64,000 nucleotides of DNA from Phalacrocorax aristotelis (lineage: Eukaryota; Chordata; Aves; Suliformes; Phalacrocoracidae). Positions 1,704 through 64,000 of the stretch are shown one piece after another (the first letter of the stretch is position 1; each line of letters opens with the position of its first letter). The position numbers and the translations under genes were made by a program. The stretch is taken from the NCBI RefSeq assembly GCF_949628215.1, contig NW_027441387.1:1-64000 (forward strand). Reading direction: 5' to 3'. The notes beneath the pieces were generated by a model. That model did not search any database. It was not told the DNA's origin and saw only the letters and a list, made by a program, of their open reading frames with translations.

Positions 1704-2191
1704 TTGCGGCTAAAAACGGAAGGCGGCGGCCGACGCTGGGATCCCGCTCGTCGCCCCGAGGGTCCCTGCTCCCACCCTCGCCCCGCCCCGGGGGTCTCTG
1801 CCCTTCGCCCCGACCCGGAGCCGCGGCGATTTGGGGACAAAACGCCCTTTTCGCGGGTTCTGCGGCGCGCGGGGGGTCGCCCCCGGCCGCAGACAGGCGC
1901 GCCCCTTCCCCCCCCCCCCCCCCCCGCCCCCCGTAGGTACCCCCGGATCCACCCGCGGGGAGGCGGGAGGGCGGCGCGCGACGCCCGGGCCCCTCCCGGC
2001 CGCCGCCAGGGACAAAACGGGAACCGGGAGCGGGAGGAAGAGGAAAAACCAAACCCGGGATGGCGCAAAAACGGGGGGGGGAAGCGGGAAAGGAGCCGGA
2101 GGCGGAGCGGGAAGGGAGGCGGCCGCGGCCTAAAGCCTGCCCGCGGGGACGGGCGCGATGGCGGCCCGGGGGCGCCCGCGGGACTCGGGGG

Positions 2192-3845
2192 CGACGGGGA
2201 CGGGGCGAGGAAGAGGCGGGGGGCGACGGGGACGGGGCGAGGAAGGGGCGGGGGGCGACGGGGACGGGGCGAGGAAGGGGCGGGGGGTGACGGGGAAAAG
2301 GCGAGGAAGAGGCGGGGGGTGACGGGGACGGGGCGAGGAAGGGGCGGGGGGCGACGGGGACGGGGCGAGGAAGGGGCGGGGGGTGACGGGGACGGGGCGA
2401 GGAAGAGGCGGGGGGTGACAGGGAAAAGGCGAGGAAGAGGCGGGGGGTGACGGGGACGGGGCGAGGAAGAGGCGGGGGGTGACAGGGAAAAGGCGAGGAA
2501 GAGGCGGGGGGTGACGGGGATGGGGCGAGGAAGGGGCGGGGGGTGACGGGGACAGGGCGAGGAAGGGGCGGGGGGTGACGGGGACAGGGCGAGGAAGGGG
2601 CGGGGGGTGACAGGGAAAAGGCGAGGAAGGGGCAGGGGGTTAGGGTGACGGGGCGAGGAAGAGGCGGGGGGCAACGGGGACGGGGCGAGGAAGAGGCGGG
2701 GGGTGACAGGGAAAAGGCGAGGAAGAGGCGGGGGGTGACGGGGATGGGGCGAGGAAGAGGCGGGGTGTGATGGGGACGGGGCGAGGAAGGGGCGGGGGGC
2801 AACGGGGACGGGGCGAGGAAGAGGCGGGGGGTGACGGGGACGGGGCGAGGAAGAGGCGGGGGGCGACGGGGACGGGGCGAGGAAGAGGCGGGGGGTGACG
2901 GGGACGGGGCGAGGAAGAGGCGGGGGGTGACAGGGAAAAGGCGAGGAAGAGGCGGGGGGTGACAGGGAAAAGGCGAGGAAGAGGCGGGGGGTGACGGGGA
3001 CGGGGCAAGGAAGAGGCGGGGGGTGACGGGGACGGGGCGAGGAAGAGGCGGGGGGCGACGGGGACGGGGTGAGGAAGAGGCGGGGGGTGACAGGGAAAAG
3101 GCGAGGAAGAGGCGGGGGGTGACGGGGACGGGGCGAGGAAGAGGCGGGGGGTGACGGGGACGGGGCGAGGAAGAGGCGGGGGGCGACGGGGACGGGGTGA
3201 GGAAGAGGCGGGGGGTGACAGGGAAAAGGCGAGGAAGAGGCGGGGGGTGACAGGGAAAAGGCGAGGAAGAGGCGGGGGGTGACGGGGATGGGGCGAGGAA
3301 GAGGCGGGGGGTGATGGGGACGGGGCGAGGAAGGGGCGGGGGGCAACGGGGACGGGGCGAGGAAGAGGCGGGGGGTGACGGGGACGGGGCGAGGAAGAGG
3401 CGGGGGGCGACGGGGACGGGGCGAGGAAGAGGCGGGGGGTGACAGGGAAAAGGCGAGGAAGAGGCGGGGGGTGACGGGGATGGGGCGAGGAAGAGGCGGG
3501 GGGTGACAGGGAAAAGGCGAGGAAGAGGCGGGGGGTGACAGGGAAAAGGCGAGGAAGAGGCGGGGGGTGACGGGGACGGGGCGAGGAAGAGGCGGGGGGT
3601 GACGGGGACGGGGCGAGGAAGAGGCGGGGGGCGACGGGGACGGGGTGAGGAAGAGGCGGGGGGTGACAGGGAAAAGGCGAGGAAGAGGCGGGGGGTGACA
3701 GGGAAAAGGCGAGGAAGAGGCGGGGGGTTAGGGTGACGGGGCGAGGAAGAGGCGGGGGGCGACAGGGAAAAGGCGAGGAAGAGGCGGGGGGTTAGGGGGA
3801 CGGGGCGAGGAAGAGGCGGGGGGTGACGGGGACGGGGCGAGGGGG
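2192..3845. repeat. 32-bp G-rich minisatellite, about 51 copies
   Basis: Head-to-tail units of about 32 bp sharing the core GCGAGGAAGAGGCGGGGGG. Two main unit types alternate irregularly: one starts GACGGGGACGGGG, the other GACAGGGAAAAGG. Smaller variants have GGGGCGGG instead of GAGGCGGG, or GATGGGGAC. Because 32 is not a multiple of three and the unit lacks stops, all frames stay open over long distances and give spurious proline- or glycine-rich ORFs. The G-rich strand is the plus strand. Copy number is an estimate from length. Confidence 0.93.
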
Positions 3846-4609: not shown

Positions 4610-7600
4610 TTATCTGTTCAACGTCCTCGCTCCAAGGCCGCCGTTGTGATTAGGGGCAAGGTAGGCGTCCGTACGGTGGACGGGCGAGGAGAAGGGGGAG
4701 GAGGAGGAGTTGTAGGAGGAGGAAGGCGTCCGGACGTTCGGGGCCCCGGTCTGAGGTTGCTGCAGGTTGAGGATGCTGTCGATGGCGCTCTGTAGGTGCT
4801 CGTTGAGCGAGTCGTCCTGGGGGCTGTCGCTGGAGAAGCTGGCGTTGTCCACCTCGAAGGACTCCGACTTCCGACGCTTGGCCGGCGGCAGCGGCACCTC
4901 CCAGGTCAGTTCCGAGCCCGAGCCCTGGTCCGGAGGCTCTGGTTTTATCATCCCGCGGTAAAACTCGTCCTCCACTTCCGCAAGCTCCTTCATAAGGCCA
5001 CCGGTGGCATCGTCGGCCTTCGGCGGGGCCGCGCTGTCCTGCAGGACGAGGGAGCGGGCGTCGCTCCTGTTGAAGAACGGGAGCTTGGAGCTCTCCTCCG
5101 GCCGGCCCTTCTCCGCCACCGCCGCCGCCGCCGAGGGGCTGTCGCGGCTCTTGTGGGAGGTGATCACGCTCCTGGAGCCATCCTCCTGCTTGATGACGAG
5201 GGCGCCGGGGAGCTTGTCGCCCTTCGGGGCGCTCCCCTTGGGGCAGGCGTCGGCCGGCTTCTCGGCCACGAAAGCGTCCACGTTCTCGCGGTAGGTCTTG
5301 CGAAGGGGGAGCCGGCAGTAGGTCACGATGGGTTTCTTCTCGGCGGGAGCCGAGGCGACGTGCTCGACGGTGCCGTTCATCTGCCCGGCGGCGGCGGCGG
5401 CGGCGCCGTGCGGGTCGGGCCCTTTGATGACTCGGCAGACGGGGGGCGGCTGGTGCACGGGGTCCAGGGCGGTGTTGTGGACCACTTTGCTGAGCCCGGC
5501 CTCCTGCTTGATCTTCAGCTTGAGGCCGATGCGGCTGCGCGCCTCGTAGGTTTTGATGGGGGGCTTGCTCCGGGAGGGCAAGGCGTCCTCGTCCCCGTCC
5601 AGGGAGGGGGAAGCCTTGGCCCAGGTGACCGACGGGGAGCCCCCGCTGTGCTTGATCACCAGCTTGGTGGGGTGCAGCGGGGGGGCCGCCTGCGCGGGGG
5701 GGGCCTTCAGGCTCTCGGGGGCCGGCGCCGCGCTGGACACGGAGGCCGGGGCCGCCGAGGAGAGGCTCTGCGAGCGGGAGGATGAGACGTACTCGTCTGG
5801 AAGGGAAACAGGGCGTTAGCGCGGGCACGGAACGCTCCCCGTCTTACCTTTCTCTTTAAAATGTTTTTTAAAATTAAAATAAAAATTATAACACTAACAT
5901 TATTGCGAAACACACGTTTTGCGAACGTTTTCCCCCCCTCTCGGCCCCTCTTCCCTCCGCTTCCTACCGAGTTCGTCCCCCGTCGCCGTGCCCGGGAACG
6001 GCGGCGGCAACTTAACGCAAACCCCCCCTTGCAAAGACCCTCCGGGAGCGGCCGGGGACGAGGAGCGATTTGCCGGGAGCCCGAAGGCCGCCGGCGCTTC
6101 GCCCTGAGCGAGGCCGCGCCCACCGAGATCCTGACCGTAGGGGAAGAGCGCCGACGGCGGCAGGTAACGCGCGCTCTCGATTTTAACAGGTTTTCCCCCA
6201 AATGCCCGCGGAGCGCGGTGGAGCGGGCCGACTCCGCCCCGCGCCGGGGCCCCCGCGGAGGAGGGACGCGCCGAAACCCAAGCGCGGGGCCGCAAGAGGC
6301 GGACAAGCAGCGGAAATAATTCGCCTCCCACCTGGTTTCTCCTTTGCCAGCTGCTTGTCGAGCGCTAACATGGTCTTTTCTTCCTGGATGAACATGCGGT
6401 CGATCATCACCATCTCGGCAGAAGGACTGACTCTCTGCGGACGAGGAGCGGAAAGGAGGAGGGAGAGGAGAGGAGAGGGGCGGGGAGGAAGAGCGGCTGC
6501 CGTCACACGTCACCCCCGCAAGGCGGCCTCTTATTCTTCCAGATCTTTCCCGTCCCCGTTCGCAAAGAGCGCCGAGGGCTCGACGCGGGGCCGCGAGGCG
6601 GATCGGCGGCCGGGAGGGGAGAGCTCTGCCGGGTCGGCGGCCGTCCCGGGGCCGAGGCCACCGCGGCGGCGAGGCCGAGGCAGCGAACCCGGGAGGCCGC
6701 GGACGGACGCGAGCGGCCCGCGTGGCTCGGGGCGGAGGGGGGCAGGACGCGGGGCTCACCCGAGACTCCTCCAAGAGCAGCAGGCGGTACTTGTTCAACA
6801 TCGCTTGCGTGCGCTTCAGCAGTTGGGTGGATACCACTTCGAACTCCTCGTCCACTGCGAGGAAGAGGAGGATGGGGGGGAAAAGAGGGTTTGTGTCACA
6901 AGGCGAAGGCGGAGACGGGGTCAGCAGCTCTTTGTTATGAACTTTTTCAGCGGGCTCACCTGGGGGAGGCCCCGAAAAGGGGGGGGCCAGCCTCGTTTTT
7001 GATCGCTGGGATTGTTAAGAAGCCGCTAAGCTCCGTTTTTAACCATTTCTCAGAATATAGGGAGGCTGTGCCAAAGCTTTGACGCGGCTTTGAGCTACTC
7101 CAGGTCAGAAACCCTGGAGAACTGCAGCTACGTTCTCTTGGGGGTCTGTGTTTTTTCTAGAGCGAGGGCGTAGGTCGCTTCCAAACTTTTTTTAGTATGA
7201 AAACCCCGCTTTCTTTTTCTTTTTTAAAAGCTCCAGCCGCTGCCCGGCCGTCGCGGCCCGCGGAGGACTCACCCTTCCTGTAGTCCTGGGCAGAGGGCAG
7301 CATCCCCTGGTAGACGTGGTAGGGCAGGAGCCGCTGCAAGGCGTCGTCGAAGGAGCGGAACGACGTCTTGTAGTCGGGATGCAGCACCGCGCCCTGGTGT
7401 TTGTGCAGCTGCTCCAGGAAACTGGGCGGAAGGAGAAGAGCAAGGGGGGGAGGGAAACATCGCTGGGAGGGGGCGGCTTTGACGGGCAAAACGCCCCGGC
7501 CGCGGCAACGAGCAGAGCCGCAGCGGCGAGAGGAGCTCGGGGGGTTTTAGCTCAGCGACCACCCCCCCCCGCCCCCCCAATGCGCTCACCAGGCTTCCTT

Positions 7601-10600
7601 GCTGGGCTGTAGTGTCGGGGCTTTCTTCAGAGCGAGCTTGCCGTCGTACTGGCGAGAGAAGGACGGACGTGGGCGAGGGGACGGACGGACGCGGGCAAGG
7701 GGAGGACGGACGCGGGCGAGGGGAGGACAGACGCGGGCGAGGGGAGGACGGACGCGGGCGAGGGGAGGACAGACGCGGGCGAGGGGAGGACGGACGCGGG
7801 CGAGGGGACGGGAGCGGAACCGCGGGTGCAACGGCTCCGGGAAGGAAAAGGCACCGCAGGGTGAGGGGAGGGGGGGAAGGGAGCGAAGCGCCGATTCCCG
7901 CGGGATTCAGGTACGGGGGGAGGCTCCCGCTCGCTTTCCCCAACAGCTCCCGGTGCTTTGGTGGGCTTTGAGTGACATATAACCTATAGATCGGCACGTA
8001 TGTACCAAACGTGCCCATGCATGAACGGGCCAGGCACGTACGTACCGAATGTGCCCATGTATGAACGCGCCAGTGGCACGTATGTACCAAATATGCCCAT
8101 ATATGAACACGCCAGGTACGTACGTACCAAATGTGCCCATATATGAACACGCCAGCGGCACGTGTGTACCAAATCTGCCCATATATGAACACGCCAGGTA
8201 CGTACGTACCAAATGTGCCCACGTATGAACACGCCAGTGGCACGTATGTACCAAATATGCCCATATATGGACACACCAGCGGCACGTATGTACCAAATAT
8301 GCCCATATATGAACACGCCAGGTACGTACGTACCAAATGTGCCCACGTATGAACACGCCAGGAGCACGTATGTACCAAATGTGCCCATATATGGACATGC
8401 CAGGAGCACGTATGTACCAAATGTGCCCATATATGGACACACCAGCGGCACGTATGTACCAAATGTGCCCATATATGAACACGCCAGGTACGTACGTACC
8501 AAATGTGCCCATATATGAACACGCCAGTGGCACGTATGTACCAAATATGCCCATATATGAACACGCCAGGTACGTACGTACCAAATGTGCCCACGTATGA
8601 ACACGCCAGTGGCACGTATGTACCAAATATGCCCATATATGAACATGCCAGGTACGTACGTACCAAATGTGCCCACGTATGAACATGCCAGCAGCACGTA
8701 TGTACCAAATATGCCCATATATGAACACGCCAGGTACGTACGTACCAAATGTGCCCACGTATGAACACGCCAGTGGCACGTATGTACCAAATATGCCCAT
8801 ATATGAACATGCCAGGTACGTACGTACCAAATGTGCCCACGTATGAACATGCCAGCAGCACGTATGTACCAAATATGCCCATATATGAACACGCCAGGTA
8901 CGTACGTACCAAATGTGCCCACGTATGAACACGCCAGTGGCACGTATGTACCAAATATGCCCATATATGAACACGCCAGGTACGTACGTACCAAATGTGC
9001 CCACGTATGAACACGCCAGTGGCACGTATGTACCAAATATGCCCATATATGAACACGCCAGGTACGTACGTACCAAATGTGCCCACGTATGAACACACCA
9101 GCGGCACATATGTACCAAATGTGCCCATATATGAACGCGCCAGGTACGTACGTACCGAATGTGCCCACGTATGAACACGCCAGCGGCACGTATGTACCAA
9201 ATATGCCCATATATGAACATGCCAGGTATGTACGTACCGAATGTGCCCATATATGAACATGCCAGCGGCACGTATGTACCAAATATGCGCATGTATGAAC
9301 ACGCCAGGTACGTGCAAATACATAAATTCGGCGTGACTTATGTATTTGGGCACCCGCGGGGGGTGGGGCGCGGAGCCCCGAGCTCACCAGCTGCTGGCCT
9401 TGCACGGGGACCGAGGGCACGAGCTGCGACAATCCTTTCCCCACGACCTGGATCTGCAAGGGACCCTTCCCGAGGCTCAGGCCCGAGACGGAACTGATCA
9501 CGCCGGGCTTTGCCTGCGCAAGGGGCGAGAGGAAATCGCTGCCGTTAGAATCCCGGAGCCCTTTCGGCACGCAGCGACTGCCGAAAGGACGCGGTGAGAA
9601 ACCGCCCGCCGAGGCGACCAGCTCGCGGGCGGCCTCTTCGCTGCCCAGGTGCAAATGCCCGAGCGTGAGAAGCAGTTTTGCATAAAAATAGGAGTTATTC
9701 TCATCTGTACTTCCAGAAATCGACGCTGAGGGTCGCGACATCCCGTTAAATCGTCGCTGAGTAAGCGGTTCTCTTGAGGAGGAGGAAGAAAGCAGCCCCC
9801 GTCCCCGGGGGTTTCATTACAGGGGGGACTATGACCCCCGAGGTCCCTTCCAACCTGGGACTAATATTGGTGGGAACGGGTAATTTTGTGCCATCTTTAG
9901 AGGTTCACAGCACTTTAAAACCAAGGGGAAAAAGGGGTTTCTAGAAACAAATTCTTCCTTCTCAACACAACGGAGGGAAATGCCGAGGGATCTCGCTGCT
10001 CTCGAGGCGGAAAACTTTGGAATAGAATGGAAAACAGTGAAAAAACACCCCCCGCGTCCTCACCTGAACCGGCTGCTGGATGGCGAGAGGCGTCCCCGAC
10101 TTCCCCGGGGCTGCGGCCGCCTTCCCGGCGGAAACCGGCGCGGAAACACCGGAGAAGGTTTTACTCTCCGCGGGAACCGGGGTGGTAATGCCTAGCAAAA
10201 GGGAGACGAGGCGGGGAGGGTTTCACGTTTAAGTTCAAGCCCGGGTAACAAATCACGTTGTCCTGGATTCCCCCCGGCACGTTTCACCCCGAAGGCCCAG
10301 GGTTTATCAAAATAAACCGATGCCCTCCCGTGGTTTCCCCCCCCCCGCCCCAGAGCCAGCGGGACGAACCTGCGGTGGAAGGCGGGAGGGCGGCGGGCGC
10401 GTGGCCGTGCGCGGGGGCCGCCGCGGTCGTCGCCGTCGCCGCCTGCCCCTGGCCGCTCACCAGGACGGAGGAGGACGGGCTGTTGAACTGGCTGAGCGCA
10501 GGGGAAGCCTGGCTGGTGGGAGGCGGCTGCTTCGTTTGCAGGATGATCCCTTGGGGCACCTGCACGGGAGGGAAAGAAAACAAAACAAAAAAAAAAAAAA

Positions 10601-38342: not shown

Positions 38343-38542
38343 NNNNNNNNNNNNNNNNNNNNNNNNNNNNNNNNNNNNNNNNNNNNNNNNNNNNNNNNNN
38401 NNNNNNNNNNNNNNNNNNNNNNNNNNNNNNNNNNNNNNNNNNNNNNNNNNNNNNNNNNNNNNNNNNNNNNNNNNNNNNNNNNNNNNNNNNNNNNNNNNNN
38501 NNNNNNNNNNNNNNNNNNNNNNNNNNNNNNNNNNNNNNNNNN
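38343..38542. other. Assembly gap (200 N)
   Basis: Exactly 200 unknown bases, a conventional placeholder size, between BICRA and ZNF541. The true length and content are unknown. Confidence 1.
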
Positions 38543-41729: not shown

Positions 41730-43520
41730 TCCTAGGGTGTCCCCCCCTCAACCCCAGCCCTCCACCCCTGCCCCCTGGGGTCTGACCCCAGCCCGCCCTG
41801 CTCCCCAGCCCTCCGCCCCTGCCCCGGAGGTCTGACCCCAGCCCGCTCTGCTCCCCAGCCCTCCGCCCCTGCCCCGGAGGTCTGACCCCAGCCCGCTCTG
41901 CTCCCCAACCCTGCGCCCCTGCCGCTGGGGTCTGACCCCAGCCCGCCCTGCTCCCCAGCCCTCCACCCCTGCCCCCTGGGGTCTGACCCCAGCCCGCCCT
42001 GCTCCCCAGCCCTCTGCCCCTGCCCCGGAGGTCTGACCCCAGCCCGCTCTGCTCCCCAACCCTGTGCCCCTGCCGCCGGGGTCTGACCCCAGCCCGCTCT
42101 GCTCCCCAGCCCCCCGCCCCTGCCCCGGGGGTCTGACCCCAGCCCGCCCTGCTCCCCAGCCCTCCGCCCCTGCCCCGGGGGTCTGACCCCAGCCCGCTCT
42201 GCTCCCCAGCCCCCGCCCCTGCCCCGGGGGTCTGACCCCAGCCCGCCCTGCTCCCCAACCCTGTGCCCCTGCCGCGGGGTCTGACCCCAGCCCGCTCTGC
42301 TCCCCAGCCCCCCGCCCCTGCCCCGGGGGTCTGACCCCAGCCCGCCCTGCTCCCCAGCCCCCCGCCCCTGCCCCGGGGGTCTGACCCCAGCCCGCTCTGC
42401 TCCCCAACCCCGCGCCCCTGCCGCTGGGGTCTGACCCCAGCCCGCCCTGCTCCCCAGCCCCGCGCCCCTGCCCCGGGGGTCTGACCCCAGCCCACTCTGC
42501 TCCCCAGCCCTCCGCCCCTGCCCCCGGGGTCTGACCCCCAGCCTGCCCTGCTCCCCAGCCCTCCGCCCCTGCCCCCGGGGTCTGATCCCAGCCCGCCCTG
42601 CTCCCCAGCCCTCCGCCCCTGCCCCCGGGGTCTGACCCCAGCCCGCCCTGCTCCCCGGCCCCCCGCCCCTGCCCCCGGGGTCTGACCCCAGCCCGCCCTG
42701 CTCCCCGCCCCCCGCCCCTGCCCCCAGGGTCTGACCCCAGCCCGCCCTGCTCCCCGGCCCCCCACCCCTGCCCCCGTGGGTCTGACCCCAGCCCGCCCTG
42801 CTCCCTGGCCCTCCGCCCCCGCGGGTCTGACCCCAGCCCGCCCTGCTCCCCGGCCCCCCGCCCCTGCCCCCAGGGTCTGACCCCAGCCCGCCCTGCTCCC
42901 TGGCCCTCCGCCCCCGCGGGTCTGACCCCAGCCCGCTCTGCTCCCCAGCCCCCCGCCCCCGGGGGTCTGACCCCAGCCTGCCCTGCTCCCCATCCTCTGC
43001 CCCCACCCCTGGGGTCTGACCCCAGCCTGCCCTGCTCCCCAGCCCTCTGCCCCTGACCCATGGGGTCTGACCCCAGCCCGCCCTGCTCCCCGGCCCTCCG
43101 CCCCTGCCCCCGGGGTCTGACCCCAGCCCGCTCTGCTCCCCAGCCCCGCTCCCCTGCCCCGGGGGTCTGACCCCAGCCCACTCTGCTCCCCAGCCCTGCG
43201 CCCCTGCCCCGGGGGTCTGACCCCAGCCCACTCTGCTCCCCAGCCCTCCGCCCCTGCCCCGGGGGTCTGACCCCAGCCCGCGCTCCTCCCCAGCCCAGCC
43301 CCTGCTCCGGGGGTCTGACCCCAGCCCGCTCTGCTCCCCAACCCTGCGCCCCTGCCGCTGGGGTCTGACCCCAGCCCACCCTGCTCCCCAGCCCTCCACC
43401 CCTGCCCCCGGGGTCTTGCCCCTGGCCCGCCCTGCTCCCCAGCCCTCCGCCCCGGGGGTCTCGCCCCCAGCCCGCTTTGCTCCCCAGCCCCCTGCTCCCA
43501 CGGCTCGCCCGAGGCCACTC
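41730..43520. repeat. 50-bp C-rich minisatellite, about 35 copies
   Basis: Units of about 50 bp with GGGGTCTGACCCCAGCCCGC, then CCTGCTCCCCAGCCCTCCGC and CCCTGCCCC, with small length changes. It lies in the probable first intron of ZNF541. The three overlapping 590-650-codon ORFs on the minus strand come only from the repeat. Confidence 0.93.
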
Positions 43521-43808: not shown

Positions 43809-46800
43809 ATGGAGCAGCACCCCTTCGGCGACGAGAGCGCGGTGCATTTGGAGATGCATCTCCCTGGGTTTCCTGACAGCCAGGGGCTCATCTCTAGCGA
43901 GGCTCTCGGCCTCGATCTGTCCCTAAATGGGGAAGGGGTCCCGTATGTGGGGCTGGGCGGCTTGGACGCAGCGCCCGGCCTTCAGCCCGCGGATGCGGCC
44001 AGTGAGGCTCCGGCGGCTGATTTAACCGCGTTCTCTGTGTACCCGGCCAAGGACTGCGGCTCCCTTCAGCTCCTCGGCGCGTCCGACCCGCGCCCCTCGC
44101 AGCACGGTGAGCGCGCTGGGCTCTGCCCTCCCCGCTGTTTTGACGGTGTCTCGCAGATGAAAGCGGCCAGAGTTATTTAGTAGTTTTGTATAGGTGGTGG
44201 AGTCTGTTACGTGGATGTATTTTTGGGGTTGAGAGATGGATGCGGGCGGTTCTTTAATCATTAAGCACTCTGAAAGCGTTTCTTGTTGCCTGTTACCTGT
44301 AAAATGACATTCAAATCGGTAAGGCTGTCGAAGATGGTGATAATTATAACACCTCTCTTTGACAGGAATTTAATTTCTCTCCTATTTTCTTAAAATTATA
44401 CCCTAGGCAGGAATATATATGTTTTTTTTTTCTTTCTCCGAGAGCCCTCGCAACCCGCTCTCCGCCTGGAAATGGAAAACGCGAAGGCATTAGAATGATA
44501 GATTTGCTAAACACGTTGCAAACACCTACGTTACTGGCTTTCCCTGGAGCGGAGAAGAGGCTTTCTGTTTAATTCTTTCTGCATTTCAAATGCATTTCAA
44601 ATGAAAGGGGTTAAGCAGAAGGGGCTTTTCCCTTCCGGAGGGAACGCGCGACGCGGTGGCGAACGTGGATCGCAGCGCGCCCCGTTTGGGTGGCTTGAGG
44701 GCAAACCAAATGGAGGGCTGCGACGAGCAGCAGCACTCGCGTAGGAAAATGAGACTTTCCCCAGTTAATAACGGCTCGTCCCTTTGCCGGGAGCCTCGAG
44801 CTGCCTCCCAAAGCCCGCTCCGGCGGGAAGCGCCTGGGTTGTTGCCCATCCGGACTGCCGGAGGTAAAACACCCCGCGCAAAGCGGGCAGCGGTTGCCTC
44901 GTTTCTTCCCTCTTTTCCCAAGAAAAAGAGGGGAAAATGGGACAGCTCGTTCCCAGCGAGGCTCGGAACGGCGAAGGACGCGACTCGTGCGAGGGCGGGA
45001 CGTGGGGTTCGGTGGTCGCGGAGGCCCCGGCAGCGAAATGGCTGCAGAGCTGGGAATCATAAGAGTGCGTTTGCGGGACCTTTGCGCTCGCTGTTGTGCG
45101 GATGCTCGGCCGCCGCGACCTGCGGGCCGGACCCCCGCAACGGGAGCCGTGTAAAAAGAGATAATTTGATCAATATTTGAGTGAAAATTGCGTTATCACA
45201 AGGGTAACCTGAGGATATCACTTTCTCCTGCCCTTCAGAGCCGGCGCTTCCCGCACCGATGGAGCCCGGAGGAGGAGCTGGAGCTGGCGGATGCGCAGGG
45301 AGAGGAAGGCATCCCCTCGTCTCTCGGCGGGCCTCGCTGCCGGGCTGCGGCCGCTGCGGGAAGGTGTTCGGCAGCGCCAGCGCTCTCAGCAAACACGGCC
45401 TGACTCACAGCCAGAAGCGGGAGCACGTCTGCGCCGTCTGCAGCAAGGCCTTCAAGCGCCCGGACCACCTGTACGTAGGCGTTCCCCGCCACCGACCCCC
45501 CAGAGCTGCCGTGGGTGGATCCGCGTCGGGAGAGGCGGCGCTCCTTAGTCTTTGCCGTCCTTTTGGGCTGGCAAATGCTGTCAAACCAGGTTACAAACCC
45601 ACCTGCGTGGCTGGTGCAAATGAGTGTTGCATTTTCCAGCGTGGGCCGCTGCAGGAAAAGCTGTAAACTACTTGCCCTAAACTACTTGCCCTAAACTACT
45701 TGCCCTAAACTACTTGCCCTAAACTACTTGCCCTAAACTACTTGCCCTAAACTACTTGCCCTAAACTACTTGCCCTAAACTACTTGCCCTAAACTACTTG
45801 CCCTAAACTACTTGCCCTAAACTACTTGCCCTAAACTACTTGCCCTAAACTACTTGCCCTAAACTACTTGCCCTAAACTACTTGCCCTAAACTACTTGCC
45901 CTAAACTACTTGCCCTAAACTACTTGCCCTAAACTACTTGCCCTAAACTACTTGCCCTAAACTACTTGCCCTAAACTACTTGCCCTAAACTACTTGCCCT
46001 AAACTACTTGCCCTAAACTACTTGCCCTAAACTACTTGCCCTAAACTACTTGCCCTAAACTACTTGCCCTAAACTACTTGCCCTAAACTACTTGCCCTAA
46101 ACTACTTGCCCTAAACTACTTGCCCTAAACTACTTGCCCTAAACTACTTGCCCTAAACTACTTGCCCTAAACTACTTGCCCTAAACTACTTGCCCTAAAC
46201 TACTTGCCCTAAACTACTTGCCCTAAACTACTTGCCCTAAACTACTTGCCCTAAACTACTTGCCCTAAACTACTTGCCCTAAACTACTTGCCCTAAACTA
46301 CTTGCCCTAAACTACTTGCCCTAAACTACTTGCCCTAAACTACTTGCCCTAAACTACTTGCCCTAAACTACTTGCCCTAAACTACTTGCCCTAAACTACT
46401 TGCCCTAAACTACTTGCCCTAAACTACTTGCCCTAAACTACTTGCCCTAAACTACTTGCCCTAAACTACTTGCCCTAAACTACTTGCCCTAAACTACTTG
46501 CCCTAAACTACTTGCCCTAAACTACTTGCCCTAAACTACTTGCCCTAAACTACTTGCCCTAAACTACTTGCCCTAAACTACTTGCCCTAAACTACTTGCC
46601 CTAAACTACTTGCCCTAAACTACTTGCCCTAAACTACTTGCCCTAAACTACTTGCCCTAAACTACTTGCCCTAAACTACTTGCCCTAAACTACTTGCCCT
46701 AAACTACTTGCCCTAAACTACTTGCCCTAAACTACTTGCCCTAAACTACTTGCCCTAAACTACTTGCCCTAAACTACTTGCCCTAAACTACTTGCCCTAA

Positions 46801-49800
46801 ACTACTTGCCCTAAACTACTTGCCCTAAACTACTTGCCCTAAACTACTTGCCCTAAACTACTTGCCCTAAACTACTTGCCCTAAACTACTTGCCCTAAAC
46901 TACTTGCCCTAAACTACTTGCCCTAAACTACTTGCCCTAAACTACTTGCCCTAAACTACTTGCCCTAAACTACTTGCCCTAAACTACTTGCCCTAAACTA
47001 CTTGCCCTAAACTACTTGCCCTAAACTACTTGCCCTAAACTACTTGCCCTAAACTACTTGCCCTAAACTACTTGCCCTAAACTACTTGCCCTAAACTACT
47101 TGCCCTAAACTACTTGCCCTAAACTACTTGCCCTAAACTACTTGCCCTAAACTACTTGCCCTAAACTACTTGCCCTAAACTACTTGCCCTAAACTACTTG
47201 CCCTAAACTACTTGCCCTAAACTACTTGCCCTAAACTACTTGCCCTAAACTACTTGCCCTAAACTACTTGCCCTAAACTACTTGCCCTAAACTACTTGCC
47301 CTAAACTACTTGCCCTAAACTACTTGCCCTAAACTACTTGCCCTAAACTACTTGCCCTAAACTACTTGCCCTAAACTACTTGCCCTAAACTACTTGCCCT
47401 AAACTACTTGCCCTAAACTACTTGCCCTAAACTACTTGCCCTAAACTACTTGCCCTAAACTACTTGCCCTAAACTACTTGCCCTAAACTACTTGCCCTAA
47501 ACTACTTGCCCTAAACTACTTGCCCTAAACTACTTGCCCTAAACTACTTGCCCTAAACTACTTGCCCTAAACTACTTGCCCTAAACTACTTGCCCTAAAC
47601 TACTTGCCCTAAACTACTTGCCCTAAACTACTTGCCCTAAACTACTTGCCCTAAACTACTTGCCCTAAACTACTTGCCCTAAACTACTTGCCCTAAACTA
47701 CTTGCCCTAAACTACTTGCCCTAAACTACTTGCCCTAAACTACTTGCCCTAAACTACTTGCCCTAAACTACTTGCCCTAAACTACTTGCCCTAAACTACT
47801 TGCCCTAAACTACTTGCCCTAAACTACTTGCCCTAAACTACTTGCCCTAAACTACTTGCCCTAAACTACTTGCCCTAAACTACTTGCCCTAAACTACTTG
47901 CCCGGTCCTAAACCTGCAGCCTAAACTGCAGCTTTCCGGTCGGTTTTCCCTCGGTTTAGGTTAAGGTGCCTGTCTAGTTCTTCCCCCCTCTCCCCCAATT
48001 TCTACTCTACCCTCTTTTCTACTGAAAAGAGAGTCGGAGCCAGGGCACCACCGCGCACGCTGACGGGTAGAACCGGGCTTGAGATCCCTTTGGGGCTGCT
48101 CGAGCCGCCGCAGCTTAGGTGCAAACCGACTTCTTTTCACCGGGAAATGCTAATCGCCCTGTTTTCCTCTGACCACCGCAGGAGCGGGCACATGGCGACG
48201 CATCAGAAAATGAAACCATTCGCGTGCCCGCATCGAGGCTGCGCTAAGAGCTACTGCGATCCCCGGTCGCTGCGCCGCCATTACGAGCTGCAGCACAGCT
48301 GGTGCGGCTCGAAGGAGGCTCCGAAGGAAGGCGCCGGGGAGGAATCCCCGCTTCTTCCCGCTCCGTGCATCCAAGGCGGCGGGAAACCGGTGGCCCGACT
48401 GGCCGCGCGCTGCGCGTCAGGCCCTTTCCCGCCCAGCGGGGACCCGCCGAGGTGCGTCGTGACCAGCTTTGCGAATCAGAAGCCCCCCTCGGCCGCCTTG
48501 CCCTCCGCCTGGGCGGACCCCGCCTCGTCAAGCCAGGCCTCCTGCCTCGCCCCTGAGGGCAGCGGCTTTCTGGAGGCCACGGGAGACGACGTAGCGACGG
48601 GCCGCCTGCCTTGCCCGAAGAGTGCCGCTTCTTCCAGCGTCTGCGCCGCGATCGATCCCGGCGACGTGTCTGTGCTGGCGCCAGGCGAGAGCGTAGTTAC
48701 CCATCTGTCCCGCAGGCCTTTCGTTTCAGAAGCCCGGCTCCCCTTGGAGCCCCAGCGATGCCCCGCCGGCCCCCTCCCCTCTTTTTCCGTGTTCAGAGGG
48801 TGGAAGCCGTCCACGAACCAGCCGAGCGGTAGCTACCAGTGGATGAGAGACATGCTGGTTTGCGCTAAACCCCAAAGGAGCGATGCCTGCCTTGCTCACG
48901 AGCCGCCCGCCGCAGCGCAGGGTGTTTCGGAGGGCTTCGCTGGACCTTCCCTCGCTCTCTCGGCTGCCTATGAGTGTCCGGACGCTTCGTCTTTGAAAGC
49001 CAAGGAGGACGCGCCGAGGAAGTTTGAGGAAGCCCCCGACTCCCACCTGTGGGAGGATGCTGGGGCGTTGATTTTCCCGGAGGTTCAGAAGTGGGACGGG
49101 CCGCCAAGCCAGACCAGGCAGCTCTTCCCGAAACCCCAGGATCCCGCCGCGTGCCCGGAGGCGCCGCAGCTGCAGCGGCACCTCTTCCAGCCGCTCGCCG
49201 CCTCTCGGCAGGTCCCGTCCCACGCCCGGGCGCCAGCTCCGGTCACGCTGGCGGCTCCCGAGGCCGAGTGCCTGCCGGCAAACCCCCTCCGAGCGGGATT
49301 TCAGCAGCCGCCCCCTTGGACGCCCCAGCTTCCGCAGCCGACGGGGTACGAAGGGCTTTCTGCGCCACTCCAAGCGTCCGTACCCCACTTCCAGGGCGTG
49401 TTGTCTGACGGGGAGAAACAAGGAGCGCAGGCAGCCCCTGCTTTTCAGTCCCCCGTGCGAGAATCCACGGGGCCGCGAGGCTCCTCTGCGCCTAGCTGGC
49501 TCTGGTGTGGAATGAGTGGAAGCGCCGCGGGAAGCCGCTCCTCCGGGAGCTGGGATCAGCTGGAAAACAAGGATTCGGCGCTTAAAAAGGAGGAGAGTAG
49601 AGACTGTGGCGCGGAGGCAGGTGGGAAACCGCCGGCGGGTGCCGGCCGGTGTTGGCGTCTGCCCGCCGTCCGCCGGGAGAAGCTGCCCTCGGGGCCGAGC
49701 TGCGCCGCTCCCCCCAGCCAGGTGGCCATGGCGTCCTTCTCTGCTCCCGCCGCCGCAACGCGCCAGCTGACCATTTTCAACCGCATCCAAGTACGTCGGC

Positions 49801-55800: not shown

Positions 55801-58794
55801 TACAGCTGGGAGCCTGGAATCCAGCCTCCGGGCTTCCAGACCCGGTCCTGGTGTGTAAATAAGAGCTTGGCTTGTCTCGTCGTCGTTCACGGGACGGTTT
55901 GGAGAATATTAGTCCTGCGGGTGACAAGGGAATCGCCCCGTTAGCTAAAACCCAAGGTCTGCGATGACAGTCCCTGCGTCCCTAGGCGCTCCTTGCCGAG
56001 CCAGCGCCTCCAGCCTGCTCCCGGCTAAGCCCGGAGAGGGCTCGGCTTTGCTCCGTGTTCCTCGAGGAGGGGGTTCAACAAGGCTTGGTCTAGCGGAGGG
56101 CTCGGCGTGCGCCGCGTCTCCACGAGGAGGCTCTCCGAGCCCCCCTGCCGTGGCGGGGACCGTCTGGAAGCGACTCCGGCGGAGGGAGAGCTCCTCCGGG
56201 AGGGGTGGGGGGGGGTGGGCTCCCGCAGCTGGGCCCCCGCAGATCTCCCGAGGGTCTGGTTTTTCACCCCAAACGCTTGGGCGCGGGTCGAGGAGAGGGT
56301 TCTGTAAGCCGCGGTGATCCCGCGGCGCCGTTGCCAAGCGCTGACTGAGCAAACCTCCTACCGCGGGCTGAACCGCCCACGAAATAGCTGAAAACACCCT
56401 TTTTTTCACCTTTTTGCCCCTCCTGAGGTGGGGAATCTGACGCCTTTTTGTGTTAAACCCTGCAGGAGGCTCTGGAGATGCTGCTTTTTGGGGTGCCTCA
56501 GAAACCTGAACCCCATCCTCTGGCTAATTACCGTTACGCAGGTAAACGGGAAGCGGAGCTCGTTCCTTCGCCTGGAGGGCGGACGGGTACCGCGCTTCCC
56601 TTTCCGCGCTCCGGAGAATTTCTGTAAATCTTCAAAGGCTTCATTTTAAAGAGAACTTAAAGAATTCATTTGAAAAAAATAAGATCGCACGGGCGGCGAG
56701 GGGGGGCTGATGCATCGACGGGCGCCTCGTAGCTGGGGCGGCGAGCCACCTCAGCCTGCGCCCCTGTTTCTTACCAGGTTCCGATACGTGGACGCCCCTC
56801 GAGAAGCAGCTGTTCCGAAAGGCTTTTTGCGTGCACAGGAAGGATTTTTACCTCATCCAGAAGCAGGTAACGCCGTGGGGCCGAGGCGGGTCTCGGGCTG
56901 TTGGCATCGACCGTCTCAACCCAGAAAAAAAGTCGCGTTTAGAGGCGTGTCCTTGGAAAACCCGCGTTTGCTTCTTAACGGTATAAAAAGGCAGCGGAAC
57001 GGGGCACGGTTTGCCCTTAATGTGTAATTACGAGGGAATATTTAATACCTCTGCTACGAAATGCCAGAGGTATTCAGATAATCGTGGAACGTGCGATTCG
57101 GCCCTCTCGGAAGAGGAAGGTTTCTTCCCCGTCTGCTGCGGCCCCGGAGAGGTTGGGGGGAAGGACAGACGGCGCTAGGTGGATTAGTCGTGTGTCTGTG
57201 CCTTAAATGTTTTACTGCGGTGTTATAGATTGCTTCTGTTTCTCTCACACTAGATTCAGACTAAGAATGTGTCCCAGTGTGTTGAATATTACTATATCTG
57301 GAAAAAAAAAATTAAATTTGACTACAGTCGAGCTCAAGTAATAGGAAAAAAGGTCAAGAGAGACAAGGATGAGGTGGAAGAGGCTGGAGAAAAGGTAGAA
57401 ACACCGCTGGGGGTTTGGGCGAGGTGCCGCTCCTCAACAGGAAGGTGCTGGGTGGTGCTGCCCGGGGAGAGGCGCTGCTCTTACTCCGCTGCTTTCATAA
57501 AACCGATCCTGGCTTAAACCTGGAACCGGGATCTCGTAGCTCGCGCCCTCCCCGAAAGGTGCCGCCGCTCTTCGCGGGCGGTGTTGGCTCGCGACGCGCC
57601 CCTCGCCGGCTCGAGACCCCCCCACCTAACGGCCCCCTTGGCGCTGAACCCGTTGCCGATGATTTTCGGGGACGTTGTGTCGCTCCGTAGAGGGCGGCGC
57701 GGGGATCGCCGAAGCCTTCCTCGCCGCCGAGCCGGAATCCGGCCCGCAGAAACACCGATTTTCTTTGTTGGCAGCGATACCCATTCTTTTTTTTTTTTTT
57801 TTTTATTGGTAGCAACTGGGTAACCGTGTAACCTCAGTGCTTTAAACCCGCGGCACGGACTTTTGTGGAGGGAAGGGGATGTTCTGCTGAGGCTGGTATA
57901 AATAATAGGGGGGTTCCTTCAAGGTCTGCGTGCGCCCCGTCCTCGCGGTGGAATTAAGGCGGGTTTCGCGGCTCCTTGGCGTTCAGAGCGGTTCACCCGG
58001 GCACACCCGGGCCGGTGCGGGCTTTTTGCGCTGGATGTAGCGCGTTCTTGCCTCGGGGGTTCCTCAGGCCCCTCCCCTGCGCCCCCCGCCTCTCCGAGGA
58101 GGAGGAGGAGGAAGAGGGGTGCATGGGGGCTCCCTGACTTGCAGGCTGCCCGCGGCTCGGGGAAGAGGCGCCGCCTCCTGCCGAAGGGGAGCCTGCCGAA
58201 GCGGAGGGCTTACCAACGGCCGCCCCGCGGCGCGCGGAGCGATGCCCGCGAGCCCCCGTGCCCGCTGGGAAGCGCAGGCCGTCGGGCTCTCTTTCCCTGC
58301 CAAGAGTGCGAAAGGTATTCATCTTTTTATTTTCCTAGAAACCAGCTCTTTTTGGCACCCGGGGGGCAGAGGGGAAGCGGAGCTAAGCGTTGCCCCGGCC
58401 CCTCTGCCCTCCCCTTCGGCTTTACGGCCAACTTTCAGCCCAAAGACGTCTTGTCTGACCACTGTGGTCCCTCACAGCCGGGCTGAAGCCCTGAAACTGA
58501 GGCCACACCCCGCATTGAAACGCGTAGGACTCACAGAAGAAGAAATAAAGCTCAGTTTAATTGTGTTTATTGAATTAAAAAAGGGAATTTGAACCCCCCC
58601 CCATTTGCTTTCCAACTTGCAGGGTGTTTGACAAGATAAAAGGGAGGAACGCTCATATGAAAAGCCATCGCCTGCAGGAGCCTGGCCTGAGGGTCAAGTG
58701 GCCCCTGAAGCATCCAAAAAGCGAGGCAGAGAGGGAAGAAACCCAGACGCCGACCTCCTCCGGGGGCGACTGCGGAGCCGTGACCTCCCAGTAG
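43809..58794 (+). CDS. ZNF541: ZNF541, ELM2-SANT zinc-finger protein of HDAC complexes
   Basis: Nuclear C2H2/ELM2/SANT protein that in mammals joins HDAC1/2 and KCTD19 complexes in meiotic germ cells. Exons: 43809-44106, 45239-45470, 48182-49790, 50444-50499, 51822-51975, 52496-52663, 53409-53736, 54446-54509, 55063-55205, 55645-55748, 56466-56541, 56778-56866, 57254-57394, 58145-58314, 58623-58794; the sum is 3,804 bases (1,267 aa, human about 1,346). All joins keep phase with GT-AG sites. Fingers: CGRCGKVF...H (about 136), CAVCSKAF split by intron 2, [11 protein letters not shown]...H (about 190), and the C-terminal [19 protein letters not shown] split by intron 14. The ELM2 region is about 960-1020 ([24 protein letters not shown]) and SANT about 1078-1130 ([31 protein letters not shown]). 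The start was chosen at the first ATG, whose product [10 protein letters not shown] resembles human MDQYSLGDEG. It is divergent from BICRA, as in human. Confidence 0.95.
44107..45238 (+). other. ZNF541: ZNF541 intron 1 after the ATG exon, nothing recognised
   Basis: GTGAGC donor and CCCTTCAG acceptor. Mixed composition; no recognisable gene or repeat. Confidence 0.6.
45664..47903. repeat. Perfect 14-bp satellite array, 160 copies
   Basis: The unit TAAACTACTTGCCC repeats without visible change from 45664 to 47903. The length 2,240 is exactly 160 units, and the phase at the last line agrees with no indel. Partial, diverged copies follow (GTCCTAAACCTGCAGCCTAAACTGCAG). It fills 2.24 kb of the 2.71 kb ZNF541 intron that splits the second zinc finger. 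Each unit junction reads CCCTAA, the telomere hexamer, but the period and remainder differ from telomeric DNA. Confidence 0.98.
49791..52495 (+). other. ZNF541: ZNF541 introns 3-5, nothing further recognised
   Basis: Introns 49791-50443, 50500-51821 and 51976-52495, each with GT and AG ends. Short ORFs only. Confidence 0.6.
52664..58622 (+). other. ZNF541: ZNF541 introns 6-14
   Basis: Introns 52664-53408, 53737-54445, 54510-55062, 55206-55644, 55749-56465, 56542-56777, 56867-57253, 57395-58144 and 58315-58622. All follow GT-AG. A T run lies at 57787-57804. No other gene or element is recognised. Confidence 0.65.
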
Positions 58795-59279: not shown

Positions 59280-59645
59280 AAGTTGGATGCTCGTGGCCCT
59301 CCCCTTTGGGGTCCCCTGGCCCTCACATTCTGCCCTCCCCTTTGGGGTCCCCTGGCCCTCCCCTTTGGGGTCCCCTGGCCCTCACATTCTGTCCTCCCTT
59401 TTGGGGTCCCCTGGCCCTCCCTTTTGGGGTCCCCTGGCCCTCGCGTTCTGCCCTCCCCTTTCGGGGTCCCCTGGCCCTCCCCTTTCGGGGTCCCCTGGCC
59501 CTCCCCTTTCGGGGTCCCCTGGCCCTCCCCTTTCGGGGTCCCCTGGCCCTCCCCTTTGGGGTCCCCTGGCCCTCGCGTTCTGCCCTCCATTTCGGGGTCC
59601 CCTGCCCTCCCTTTCGGGGTGCCGCGGCCCTCGCGTTCTGCCCTC
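59280..59645. repeat. 24-bp minisatellite, about 14 copies
   Basis: Units CCCCTGGCCCTCCCCTTTNGGGGT of 22-24 bp, some with an inserted TCGCGTTCTG segment. Located in the probable 3' UTR or just past ZNF541. Confidence 0.9.
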
Positions 59646-60185: not shown

Positions 60186-60191
60186 TTTATT
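60186..60191 (-). terminator. Candidate poly(A) signal for the ZBED gene
   Basis: Minus-strand AATAAA about 680 bases after the ZBED stop codon. A further minus-strand ATTAAA lies nearer, at about 60384-60389. The choice between them is open. Confidence 0.35.
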
Positions 60192-60867
60192 GCCCCGCTT
60201 TTCCGTCTGTTTGCGCGACTAACTCTTGCTAAAACCGCGTTGGGGAGTGGAAACGGAAGGTTTGAGTGGTTCCATGAACGCAATAGAAATTTAAGGGGTC
60301 TCGTCTCCGCCATTGCCACGCCAGGAGGGATAAAAGGCTTTTTTTTCTTTGTTGTTGTTGCCAGGCCTGGAGATTTTCACAGCTTTAATTTTTCCTAGGC
60401 CGAACGTTCGCACCCGGCACAAACAAATCCGTGTTTCGGTTCCGTTTTCCCCTTATGGGACCCGTCTTTGGGTCTGGGCCTCGATAAACAACTTCTTCAC
60501 CCAAATCAGGCTTTGCAGAGCGGGTGCGAGCGTTACCCTCCCGCTTCTCGTAGCTCGTGTTGAAACCACCCGGGCACGGGCTGGGCCTGGGTTTAGAGCG
60601 CTCGAGAAGGCGCTTGGGGGCCTTAAGCCTGGCTTAGGCTCTCGGGTGGGTGCGATGCGAGTAGGGCCGCACCGAGAGGAAACAAAGTGCCTTGAAGCCG
60701 GGGCCGAGAGCGTGAGCGCTGGAGGGTTCGTCCCTCCTCCCGAGCTCGCTCTTGGCCGCCAAAGCGATTCCGGAAAGGCGTGGGCAGGAGTTTGGAACAA
60801 AACAAACCCCCCCCCCCGCCGCTGGGTGACGGCGGCGGGGCCGAAGACCCCGCGGAAGCCCCGCGCC

Positions 60868-63204
60868 TCAGTGCGGCGTTCTGTTCCAAGCCTCGCTACC
60901 GTTTCTCACCGATTCTAAAAAATCGAAATTCTGATGCAAGAACAGAATTTGGTCCAGGTTCTCCGGCGCCAGGACGGCTCGCCGATGCTCCAGGGCGCTC
61001 TCGCCGGCGCCGAAGGCCTGCTCGGGCAGCACGGCGGTGGCGGGGACGGCGAGGTACTGCCGGCTCAGCCGCGCCACGGCCGGGAAGCGATGCTCGTTGT
61101 TCTTCCACCAGTCCAGCGGGTTGGTGCTGCGCTTGCAGAGAGGCTCCACGATGTAGTTTTCCAGTTGCTGGTGGATCTCGGGCATGCTCTCGGTCGGGTC
61201 CTTCCCCAAAAGGATGTCGTACATGCTCTGGGACGGGGCGCTCGAGCACCGATCCTTGCGAGCCGAGAGCTGGCCGCCCGCGTCTCCGCCCTCGGCTTTG
61301 GGATCGGCGTTGGGCACCCAGAACTGGGCGGCGGGCGGGGGCTGGAAAACCTGCGACAGCATGGTTTTGACTCTCCTGTGCAGCTCGCTCCTCAGGCTGG
61401 GGCTCAGAAACCTCAGCTCCTTGAAGCGCGGGTCCAAAAAAGACGCGATAACGGCCGGGCTCTCCAGCAGCTTCTCGTCCTCCGCTAACCCCCAGCGCCG
61501 CGTCAGCTCCGACCTGATGTTGCCTACGACCGTCTTGATGACGGCGCCGGCCTCCTCCGACTGCTGCCCGATGGCGGCGACGATCCCGTGGATGCAAGGC
61601 ATCAGGGCGGACACGGACGCGTTCTGCTCCTCGCGCAGGAAGGACGTGGCGATCTTGACGGTCCTCATGACCGGCACCAGGTCCTGGAGGAGCTTCCACT
61701 GGTGGTCGGCCAAGTGGCGGAGCGCCGCCGGGCCCTTGGGGTGCTCCTCCAGCACGGACATGATGGCCCACTTGAGGTCGAGGAGGCTCTCGCACATCTC
61801 GAGGGTGGTGATCCAGCGGGAGCCCGTGTCCATCACCAGCTTCAGCTTGCTTTTATTGATGGCTTCCAGCTTGCTGTTGAGGGAGCAGGTGGCTTTCGCG
61901 TCCTGCTGGAAGTACCCGACGATGCCGCGGGCGATGCCCAGCGCTTCCTGCACCTGCTCGACGTCCAGCCCGGCCTTGACGCAGAGGTGGAGGGTGCGGG
62001 CGGCGCAGCGCAGGCTGCTCCAGCCGTACGCCGCCTTCAGCCGCTGCCCGTTCGCCGCCGGGCCGTCGTGCAGCACGCAGAAGACTGATTTGCTGGAGAG
62101 CCCGAACTCGCCGAGGACGGCGTAGAGCTTCTCCCCCAAATCGCCCTCCGCCTCGTCCCGGCGCACTTGCCGCGTCTCCATGACGCACCGCGCCCGCCGC
62201 CACTCGCCGTCGATGAAGTTGGCCGTGACGGTCAGGTAGGTCTGGCTGAGCCGCGAGCCCCAGAGCTCCGCGCACACCACGATGGCCTGAGCCGTCTGCA
62301 GGTAGCGCTCCACGTGCTGCTTGACCACGCTGTACCTGCGCCACAGCATGCCGGCGAGCTGCAGGGGCGACGGGAGGGCGAAGCTGGGCTCCAGGTAGCC
62401 CACGAGGAGCCCGAACCCTTTGTCCTTCACCACGGAGAGCGGGTGCAGGTCGCGGAAGATCATCTCCAGCACCAGCTCCAGGATGACGTCGGCCCTGGGC
62501 TCCGAGCAGGACGCGGCGTGGTAGAGGCCGCTCTCCGGCGGCGTCTGCCGCGAGCGTTTCGCGGCGTTTTCCTGAGCCGCGCACTCGGATTCGGAAGCCT
62601 GGTCGTCCTTGAGCTGGGAGAGGAGGGTGTCGCGGATGCTGTGCTTCCTCACCAGGTGCTCTCTCATCGTCGTCGTGCTGTTGTGGAAGGAGAGCTGCTT
62701 CTTGCAGACGTTGCACTCCACGTAGGCGTCGCCCAGCTTCGTGTAGTAGTTCCACACCTTGGACTTGCGGCGGTCGACGTAGAGCGCCGCGCTCGCGCCC
62801 TCCGGCCCCCCGCCTTTCTCCCTCCTCCTCCTCGGCGACGGCCCGAGGTTGGTGGCCGCCATGTTGTAGGCGTTGAAGACCATCGGAACTTCCTCTGAGG
62901 AGACAAAAACACAACGCAGCCTAAAATTCGAACCTTAAACCCCGCTTTAGGATCGACGTTCTTTAGTCCCGCGCCTTACCGGAGCCCGGAAGCCCTGCTT
63001 GCCCCGCGCCGCCTTCGCCCGCTGCCGCTTCCCATTTTGGGGGGGGAAACGAGCCAAAAGGGCGCACGTACCTCGTACCGACGGCGGGACGAGAGGGAGG
63101 GAAGGCTCCTCCGTCGCCTCCTCCTTGGGCTGCGCCTCTCCGGCCTCCGGCTTAACGCATTTCTGCAAGAACTGAGACGCTCCCGTGGAGTTCCCGTCTG
63201 CCAT
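60868..63204 (-). CDS. hAT transposase-derived ZBED-family protein, two exons
   Basis: Probable nuclear DNA-binding protein descended from a hAT transposase. Exon 1 is 63204-63072 (MADGNSTGASQFLQKC..., 44 codons plus one base, donor GAG|GTACGT). Exon 2 is 62894-60868 (acceptor TCCTCAG|AGGAAG). The joined frame is open for 719 aa; the alternative start at 62883 would give 671 aa. BED finger at about residues 88-130 (C105, C108, H124, H129). RNase-H-like hAT core: VVCAELWGS where active relatives have TDxWTS, then LHDGPAANG, RCAARTLHL and GSRWITTLEM. C-terminal dimerisation block at about 636-703 (NPLDWWKNNEHRFPAVARL, PATAVLPEQAFG). The uninterrupted frame, host-like GC-rich codons and a separate spliced N-terminal exon suggest a domesticated gene. 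I cannot name the orthologue; it resembles ZBED1/ZBED4-type proteins. Confidence 0.88.
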
Positions 63205-64000
63205 CGCGGCCTTCGCCCGGGAGCCGAGCGGGGAAACGAGCGCCGTTAGAAGTGAGGCCGGCGGGGCTCGGATCCGGCGCCGGGGAGGGGGGGGTGGAGC
63301 GGGGCAGCGAGGGGCCGCCTTGGAAATGCTTCCCCTCCTCTCCCCCCTCCCCAAAAGCAGGTGGGGGGGGCGAGAACGGTGAAAACAGCGGGTTTAAAGG
63401 CGATCTCGGGCCCTTCGCTGCTGCCGGCGCGGTCACCCGCGCCCCTCGCGCCCGCGGGGGTTTCGTAGCGGGTTGGGGGTTTTTTTGGTCCTTAAAACAT
63501 CGCCGGGCCCTTGGGTGGGAATTGGGGTTAAACCAGCACAAAACGGGGCAGGGAACAGCCGTAATCCTCGCCTAGCCGGCGGTAATCGCCATTTTTAACC
63601 GTGGCCGGCGTCCCCTTCCCTCTGCGTGTGAGATGGGGCTGGGCCCTCGCCGTAAGTAGTCCCGCAACGAGGAAACCCCTTTTGGGCCGATTTTCCCCCC
63701 ACCCCAAGACCCCCCGGCTGGGACACGGGGGTGCCGGCGCCGCCCCCCTTACCTCCTCTCCGCCAGCGCTGCCGGGTCGGGAGCACGCGCCGGAGCCCGC
63801 CGAGGACGGCCCCGCTTCTTTCACCGGCACCGGGCTTTCACCGCGGCGGGTGGCGCGGCGAGGGGCGCGAGGGCGGCTCGTGGGGGGAGACCCTCTCCCC
63901 CAGCCACCCCCTCATCGCCGGGGGTCGTGCCGTCGGTCACCGCGCTGCTGCCGTCGCCTTCCCGGCCGCGGGTGGGCGCTGAATTCGGGGGGATTTCACC
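63205..64000 (-). promoter_or_regulatory. CpG-rich upstream region of the ZBED gene
   Basis: GC- and CpG-dense DNA directly before the exon 1 ATG on the minus strand, without a TATA box that I can see. It probably contains the 5' UTR and promoter. No gene is recognisable on the plus strand before the window ends. Confidence 0.45.

Follow-up and report, generated by a model that had tools for sequence, protein, structure and literature searches.

The ZBED genes are a studied case of transposases that have turned into regulators. Hayward (2013) describes them as hATs that were domesticated and carry BED fingers, and reports that their catalytic DDE triad is conserved (PMC3606216), so that, on this account, the state of the triad cannot separate a gene from a transposon. 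The housefly transposase Hermes is itself described as carrying a BED domain (PMC10368747). If a further ZBED-type gene had an altered active site, it would set the co-option of DNA binding apart from the retention of catalytic residues. In birds, older assemblies are reported to have missed many genes on the GC-rich dot chromosomes (PMC9974502), and a hAT-derived gene could therefore have been overlooked there.

Here, we describe a candidate of this kind. The window (the whole stretch of DNA that was analysed, 64 kb in length and GC-rich) carries on its minus strand an intact frame of 719 codons plus stop, in two spliced exons that join to 2160 nt. We consider it likely that this is a ZBED-type host gene of hAT transposase origin, and that its product is a dimeric, non-cutting, DNA-binding regulator of transcription or chromatin. 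Judged from the sequence, it would be a new or unlisted member of the known ZBED-like, hAT-derived genes and not a new kind. The coordinates of all features are collected in Table 1.

Table 1. Features of the hAT-derived gene and of its neighbours in the 64-kb window; residue numbers are those of the 719-aa product.
Feature	Position	Strand	Details
Coding exon 1	63072..63204	-	133 nt; residues 1-44 and first base of codon 45
Intron	62895..63071	-	177 bp, GT..AG, GC 0.60
Coding exon 2	60868..62894	-	2027 nt; residues 45-719 and stop; open frame
BED zinc finger, residues 89-130	62638..62763	-	Pfam PF02892 zf-BED, 1.5e-11, over curated cut-off
hAT catalytic RNase H-like core, residues 184-430	61738..62478	-	Homologous to Hermes 96-344
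E254, codon GAG, at Hermes D180 (first catalytic D)	62266..62268	-	Hermes alignments
D321, codon GAC, at Hermes D248 (second catalytic D retained)	62065..62067	-	Hermes alignments
R344, codon CGC, at Hermes H268 (CxxH histidine lost)	61996..61998	-	Hermes alignments
hAT C-terminal dimerisation block, residues 622-700	60928..61164	-	Pfam PF05699 Dimer_Tnp_hAT, 1.1e-16, over cut-off
E669, codon GAG, at Hermes E572 (catalytic E retained)	61021..61023	-	phmmer Hermes alignment
Nearest AATAAA 3' of the stop, candidate poly(A) signal	60186..60191	-	Motif scan only
Opposed AATAAA pair	58544..58571	both	+ 58544-58549, - 58566-58571; motif only
ZNF541-type SANT exons, frames	56711..57517	+	Joined peptide, best PDB match MIDEAS SANT, 2.6e-10
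BICRA, part of GLTSCR1 domain	6754..6858	-	Pfam PF15249, 9.8e-06, 26.4 bits, under the curated cut-off of 28.2; profile 42-77 of 102

The two coding exons agree in phase (the exon 1 donor, CGAG/GTACGT, is phase 1), the acceptor directly before exon 2 is the pyrimidine-rich TTTTTGTCTCCTCAG, and the ATG lies within GCCGCGATGG. With 719 codons and a stop, this bears out the intact two-exon frame of the original prediction. By itself, frame length is a modest argument where the GC content is high: when exon 2 was simulated 1000 times (order 1), a frame of 600 aa or longer came up once. It is the Pfam domain matches that decide against chance, and on these a chance open frame was ruled out. Upstream of the ATG, 796 bp remain to the end of the window, with a GC content of 0.71 and a CpG observed/expected ratio of 0.94. 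Within this GC-rich stretch, a donor-like AGGAG/GTAAGG at 63752 on the minus strand (motif only) may mark where a non-coding first exon ends. On the 3' side, a motif scan places a variant ATTAAA, at 60389, closer to the stop than the candidate AATAAA signal.

The frame encodes the three elements that had been predicted for it, namely a BED finger, a hAT core, and a hAT dimerisation block. Pfam finds one BED finger, in which all four zinc ligands are present in the Cx2C...H arrangement of ZBED genes (C105, C108, H124, and H129). These ligands align with those of the human ZBED1 BED structure 2ct5, in a weak match (E 1.2) that two other chains outrank. Hermes is the best solved relative when the whole protein is searched by phmmer against the PDB (E 6.5e-9), and its residues 538-603 align inside the dimerisation block. 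For the core stretch alone phmmer gave an i-Evalue of just 0.79, so a 270-aa core piece was aligned separately to Hermes 96-344. It reached a local score of 94 (z 12.2), which none of 500 shuffles attained (mean 31.6, sd 5.1, maximum 71). The Pfam core model had no match in the 719-aa protein, and a single-sequence AlphaFold2 model (mean pLDDT 39.4, pTM 0.26) was unusable for the fold. On the alignments, the core appears collinear with the RNase H-like core of Hermes, which points to an origin in the hAT superfamily.

The SANT exon peptide in Table 1, joined with four residues omitted at the join, gives a Pfam Myb_DNA-binding match of 0.031, under the cut-off, and C2H2 fingers found by Pfam at 45.2 kb fit a ZNF541-type gene on the plus strand. 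Across eight neighbouring frames, Pfam named zinc-finger families alone, and these in one of the eight. We provisionally take the SANT gene to be ZNF541, and not another of the MIDEAS/TRERF1 relatives, given that BICRA lies nearby. Long BICRA-like frames, recognised by eye, extend up to 17.5 kb, and Pfam named nothing in the three that were searched. The hAT gene does, as predicted, adjoin the ZNF541-type gene, and the two lie tail to tail. The opposed AATAAA motifs between them, which are 2 of the 12 AATAAA/ATTAAA matches on both strands from 57.0 to 60.87 kb, fit such a convergent arrangement. We take the human gene order to be NAPA, ZNF541, BICRA; on this order, the hAT gene would separate the 3' end of ZNF541 from the expected NAPA, of which nothing was recognised by eye within the window.

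Inside the ZNF541-type gene, positions 45664-47903 consist of 160 copies of the 14-bp unit TAAACTACTTGCCC with 100% matches, an array that could have expanded recently or could have arisen in assembly. The intron repeats described for dot chromosomes in PMC12954441 are longer and less perfect. Long minisatellites lie within and near the BICRA and ZNF541-type genes (2187-3842, 7996-9313, 41752-43490, and 59294-59645, with units of 32, 82, 50, and ~23/59 bp). They resemble the “sequence stuttering” reported for introns of chicken dot chromosomes (PMC12954441), for which minisatellites are also described in PMC9974502. Together with the GC content and the set of genes, these minisatellites suggest that the window is avian. 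A run of 200 N at 38343-38542 is probably an assembly gap.

Does the gene already have a name? It could be the orthologue of a named ZBED (ZBEDX, ZBED1, ZBED4, or an avian ZBED-like model) known under another label, a reading that overlaps with ours and is compatible with it, and that we regard as rather doubtful. Annotation pipelines would probably assign such a gene a ZBED-like name. In addition, ZBED1, ZBED4, and ZBEDX are reported to be widespread in fish (PMC10967968), and Table 1 of Hayward gives chicken orthologues of ZBED1 and ZBED4 (PMC3606216). Against this stands the locus. The loci in that table (DHRSX, CD96, AGGF1, ALG12, ZC3H11A, LRRC6/LRRC61, and EIF4G2), from which ZBED7-9 are omitted, do not include the neighbours found here, the ZNF541-type gene and BICRA, in a window that ends at 64000. 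The finger count also argues against some of the candidates, with one BED finger here and, in the same source, two in ZBEDX and ZBED6 and four in ZBED4, although ZBED1, 2, 3, and 5 likewise have one (PMC3606216). Among the open-licence papers searched, a single one, on tumour expression, came up for ZBED together with ZNF541.

The ZNF541 complex has a meiotic role. A bolder form of our reading, which we put forward only tentatively, is that the gene stems from its own, as yet unnamed, domestication of a hAT in vertebrates, was fixed in sauropsids with ZNF541 on one side and NAPA on the other, lost two active-site residues, and is possibly co-regulated with that complex.

Composition and flanks bear on whether the frame is a host gene or a transposon copy. 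In exon 2, GC at codon positions 1, 2, and 3 is 0.62, 0.44, and 0.92; over the whole frame GC3 is 0.91, GC4 is 0.93 (371 sites), and GC2 is 0.44. Two nearby BICRA-like frames, recognised by eye, have GC3 values of 0.91 and 0.91, and this agreement is the pattern expected of a frame under long protein-level selection. Against it, the frame taken for ZNF541 has 0.75, and the GC3 could in part have been inherited from the transposon. At an assumed neutral divergence of 10%, 7.8 stops would be expected in the frame, which has none.

Transposons of the hAT type have a CA start and an 8-bp target site duplication (TSD). We scanned 57.9-60.87 and 62.9-64.0 kb for pairs of 14-bp terminal inverted repeats (TIRs) with a TSD matching at 7 of 8 positions or more, and ran 10 simulations. 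Pairs with at least 9, 10, 11, and 12 matches numbered 33, 7, 1, and 0, compared with simulated means of 18.3, 4.4, 0.7, and 0.2 (ranges 11-31, 1-12, 0-2, and 0-1); the counts are inside the simulated range at three of the four thresholds and just above it at the laxest. None of the 33 pairs at the laxest threshold starts with CA on both sides. Two inverted repeats bracket the coding part, 60825-60843 with 63807-63825 (79% over 19 nt) and 60806-60822 with 63279-63295, both among the 25 listed of 96 pairs. Neither has a target duplication (4/8 and 1/8 positions agree, and 5/8 and 3/8 at the best shift). The original prediction had pointed to TIRs around the gene as a check on its host origin. 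The flanks available in the window show no convincing ends, in keeping with a host gene; the result is less firm on the 5' side, where just 796 bp separate the ATG from the window end and a 5' TIR could lie outside, and at the laxest threshold, where the count exceeds the simulations.

Searches for relatives were similarly negative. A tblastn search of the 64-kb window found no second copy (other matches E 0.4 or worse), the viral contigs searched with the exon-2 protein gave no relative, and of four stretches in prokaryotic contigs that fit a peptide pattern none proved to be a relative by tblastn. Rfam at gathering thresholds gave no matches.

It is improbable, in our judgement, that we are looking at a fairly recent, undecayed hAT transposon copy, or at a misread gene model, without host function. 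Such cases do occur: hAT transposons misannotated as a transcription factor are reported from fish, reptiles, and amphibians (PMC10641963), a set from which bird sequences were excluded as unlike transposons, and the 5' flank within the window is short. Weighing against a copy are the flanks without convincing ends, a frame that is intact apart from two active-site changes, GC3 values that match those of the BICRA-like frames, a first coding exon that is short, spliced, and preceded by GC-rich DNA, and the lack of any further window match better than E 0.4 by tblastn. Domestication as a host gene remains the reading we prefer.

The active site was compared with that of Hermes, whose residue numbers (D180, D248, C265, H268, W319, and E572) were counted along the printed phmmer alignment. 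The first catalytic motif reads AELWGS from residue 253, and the replacement of its aspartate by glutamate, claimed in the original prediction, is confirmed by the alignment of E254 with Hermes D180. The same prediction also read the last motif as deviant; that its catalytic glutamate is lost, we reject. The motif reads PEQAFG from residue 668, its glutamate, E669, aligns with Hermes E572 and is the catalytic one, and the changes lie around it (P for Hermes S571 and Q for R573). The DDE triad thus carries one change, not two. A second active-site change, absent from that prediction, is the replacement of the CxxH histidine by R344; the cysteine of this motif is retained as C341 at Hermes C265, and W405 stands at Hermes W319. 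With E254 and R344, the protein lacks the full D, D, E triad and CxxH of an active hAT transposon. Hermes is reported to contact its TIRs through K585, R586, and R588 (PMC4763223), and these positions read R, R, and V in an ungapped alignment.

What these changes mean for cutting can be gauged by analogy. Kat1 is reported to lose cleavage when predicted catalytic residues are mutated, its double mutant C402A/H405A makes nicks only and no hairpins, and catalysis by Hermes is said to suffer severely from mutations of H268 (PMC4763223). In piggyBac, changing any of four core aspartates to N or E reduced excision, with D450E the best tolerated, and Hermes D180C with Mn still forms hairpins and joins ends (PMC2533014). 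On these precedents normal cut-and-paste activity is unlikely, since E replaces the first D and R replaces the CxxH histidine; nicking would still be possible, and the behaviour of Hermes D180C with Mn and of Kat1 without its CxxH would speak against a complete loss of cutting. That the gene encodes a domesticated enzyme which still nicks DNA like the Kat1 CxxH mutant, without hairpinning, is very improbable. In its favour, D321 and E669 are kept, E254 retains a carboxylate so that all three DDE places are acidic, RW is retained, and both mutants just named offer a precedent; against it, D to E at core aspartates reduced piggyBac excision, the TIR-contacting R588 is V, and the flanks are without convincing transposon ends.

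The original claim that binding and dimerisation were kept while cutting was lost is supported in its first half, insofar as the zinc ligands and the dimerisation block are retained. For its second half, the change of D to E speaks in favour and the intact glutamate of the last motif against. As the parts for binding and pairing are kept and the cutting centre differs at two key positions, a gene regulator is the most likely product. Two subunits would probably dimerise through the C-terminal hAT block, and the dimer would probably contact DNA through one BED finger per subunit. Self-association of ZBED1 is reported to be required for its DNA binding (PMC6179265), a precedent for this mechanism. 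The dimer would probably act as a regulator of transcription or chromatin, as some known ZBED genes do, and would probably no longer perform cut-and-paste.

It remains to place the gene among known systems. With ZBED1 (hDREF) and the vertebrate ZBEDs of the hAT-Ac group it shares a BED finger, a hAT core, a dimerisation block, and an intact gene, and with ZBED1 also the single finger. It differs from the ZBED genes in lying beside a ZNF541-type gene, a distinction made by locus, and in having E for the first catalytic D, where DDE conservation is a reported trend and no defining rule. Compared with Hermes, the core and C-terminal block align and W182, D248, C265, R318, W319, and E572 are retained; the differences are D180 to E, H268 to R, S571 to P, R588 to V, and no convincing transposon ends around the gene in the window. 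Like the gene proposed here, Kat1 of Kluyveromyces lactis is a hAT transposase domesticated for a host role, and it differs in that it is reported to retain its DDE and CxxH residues and still to cut (PMC4763223).
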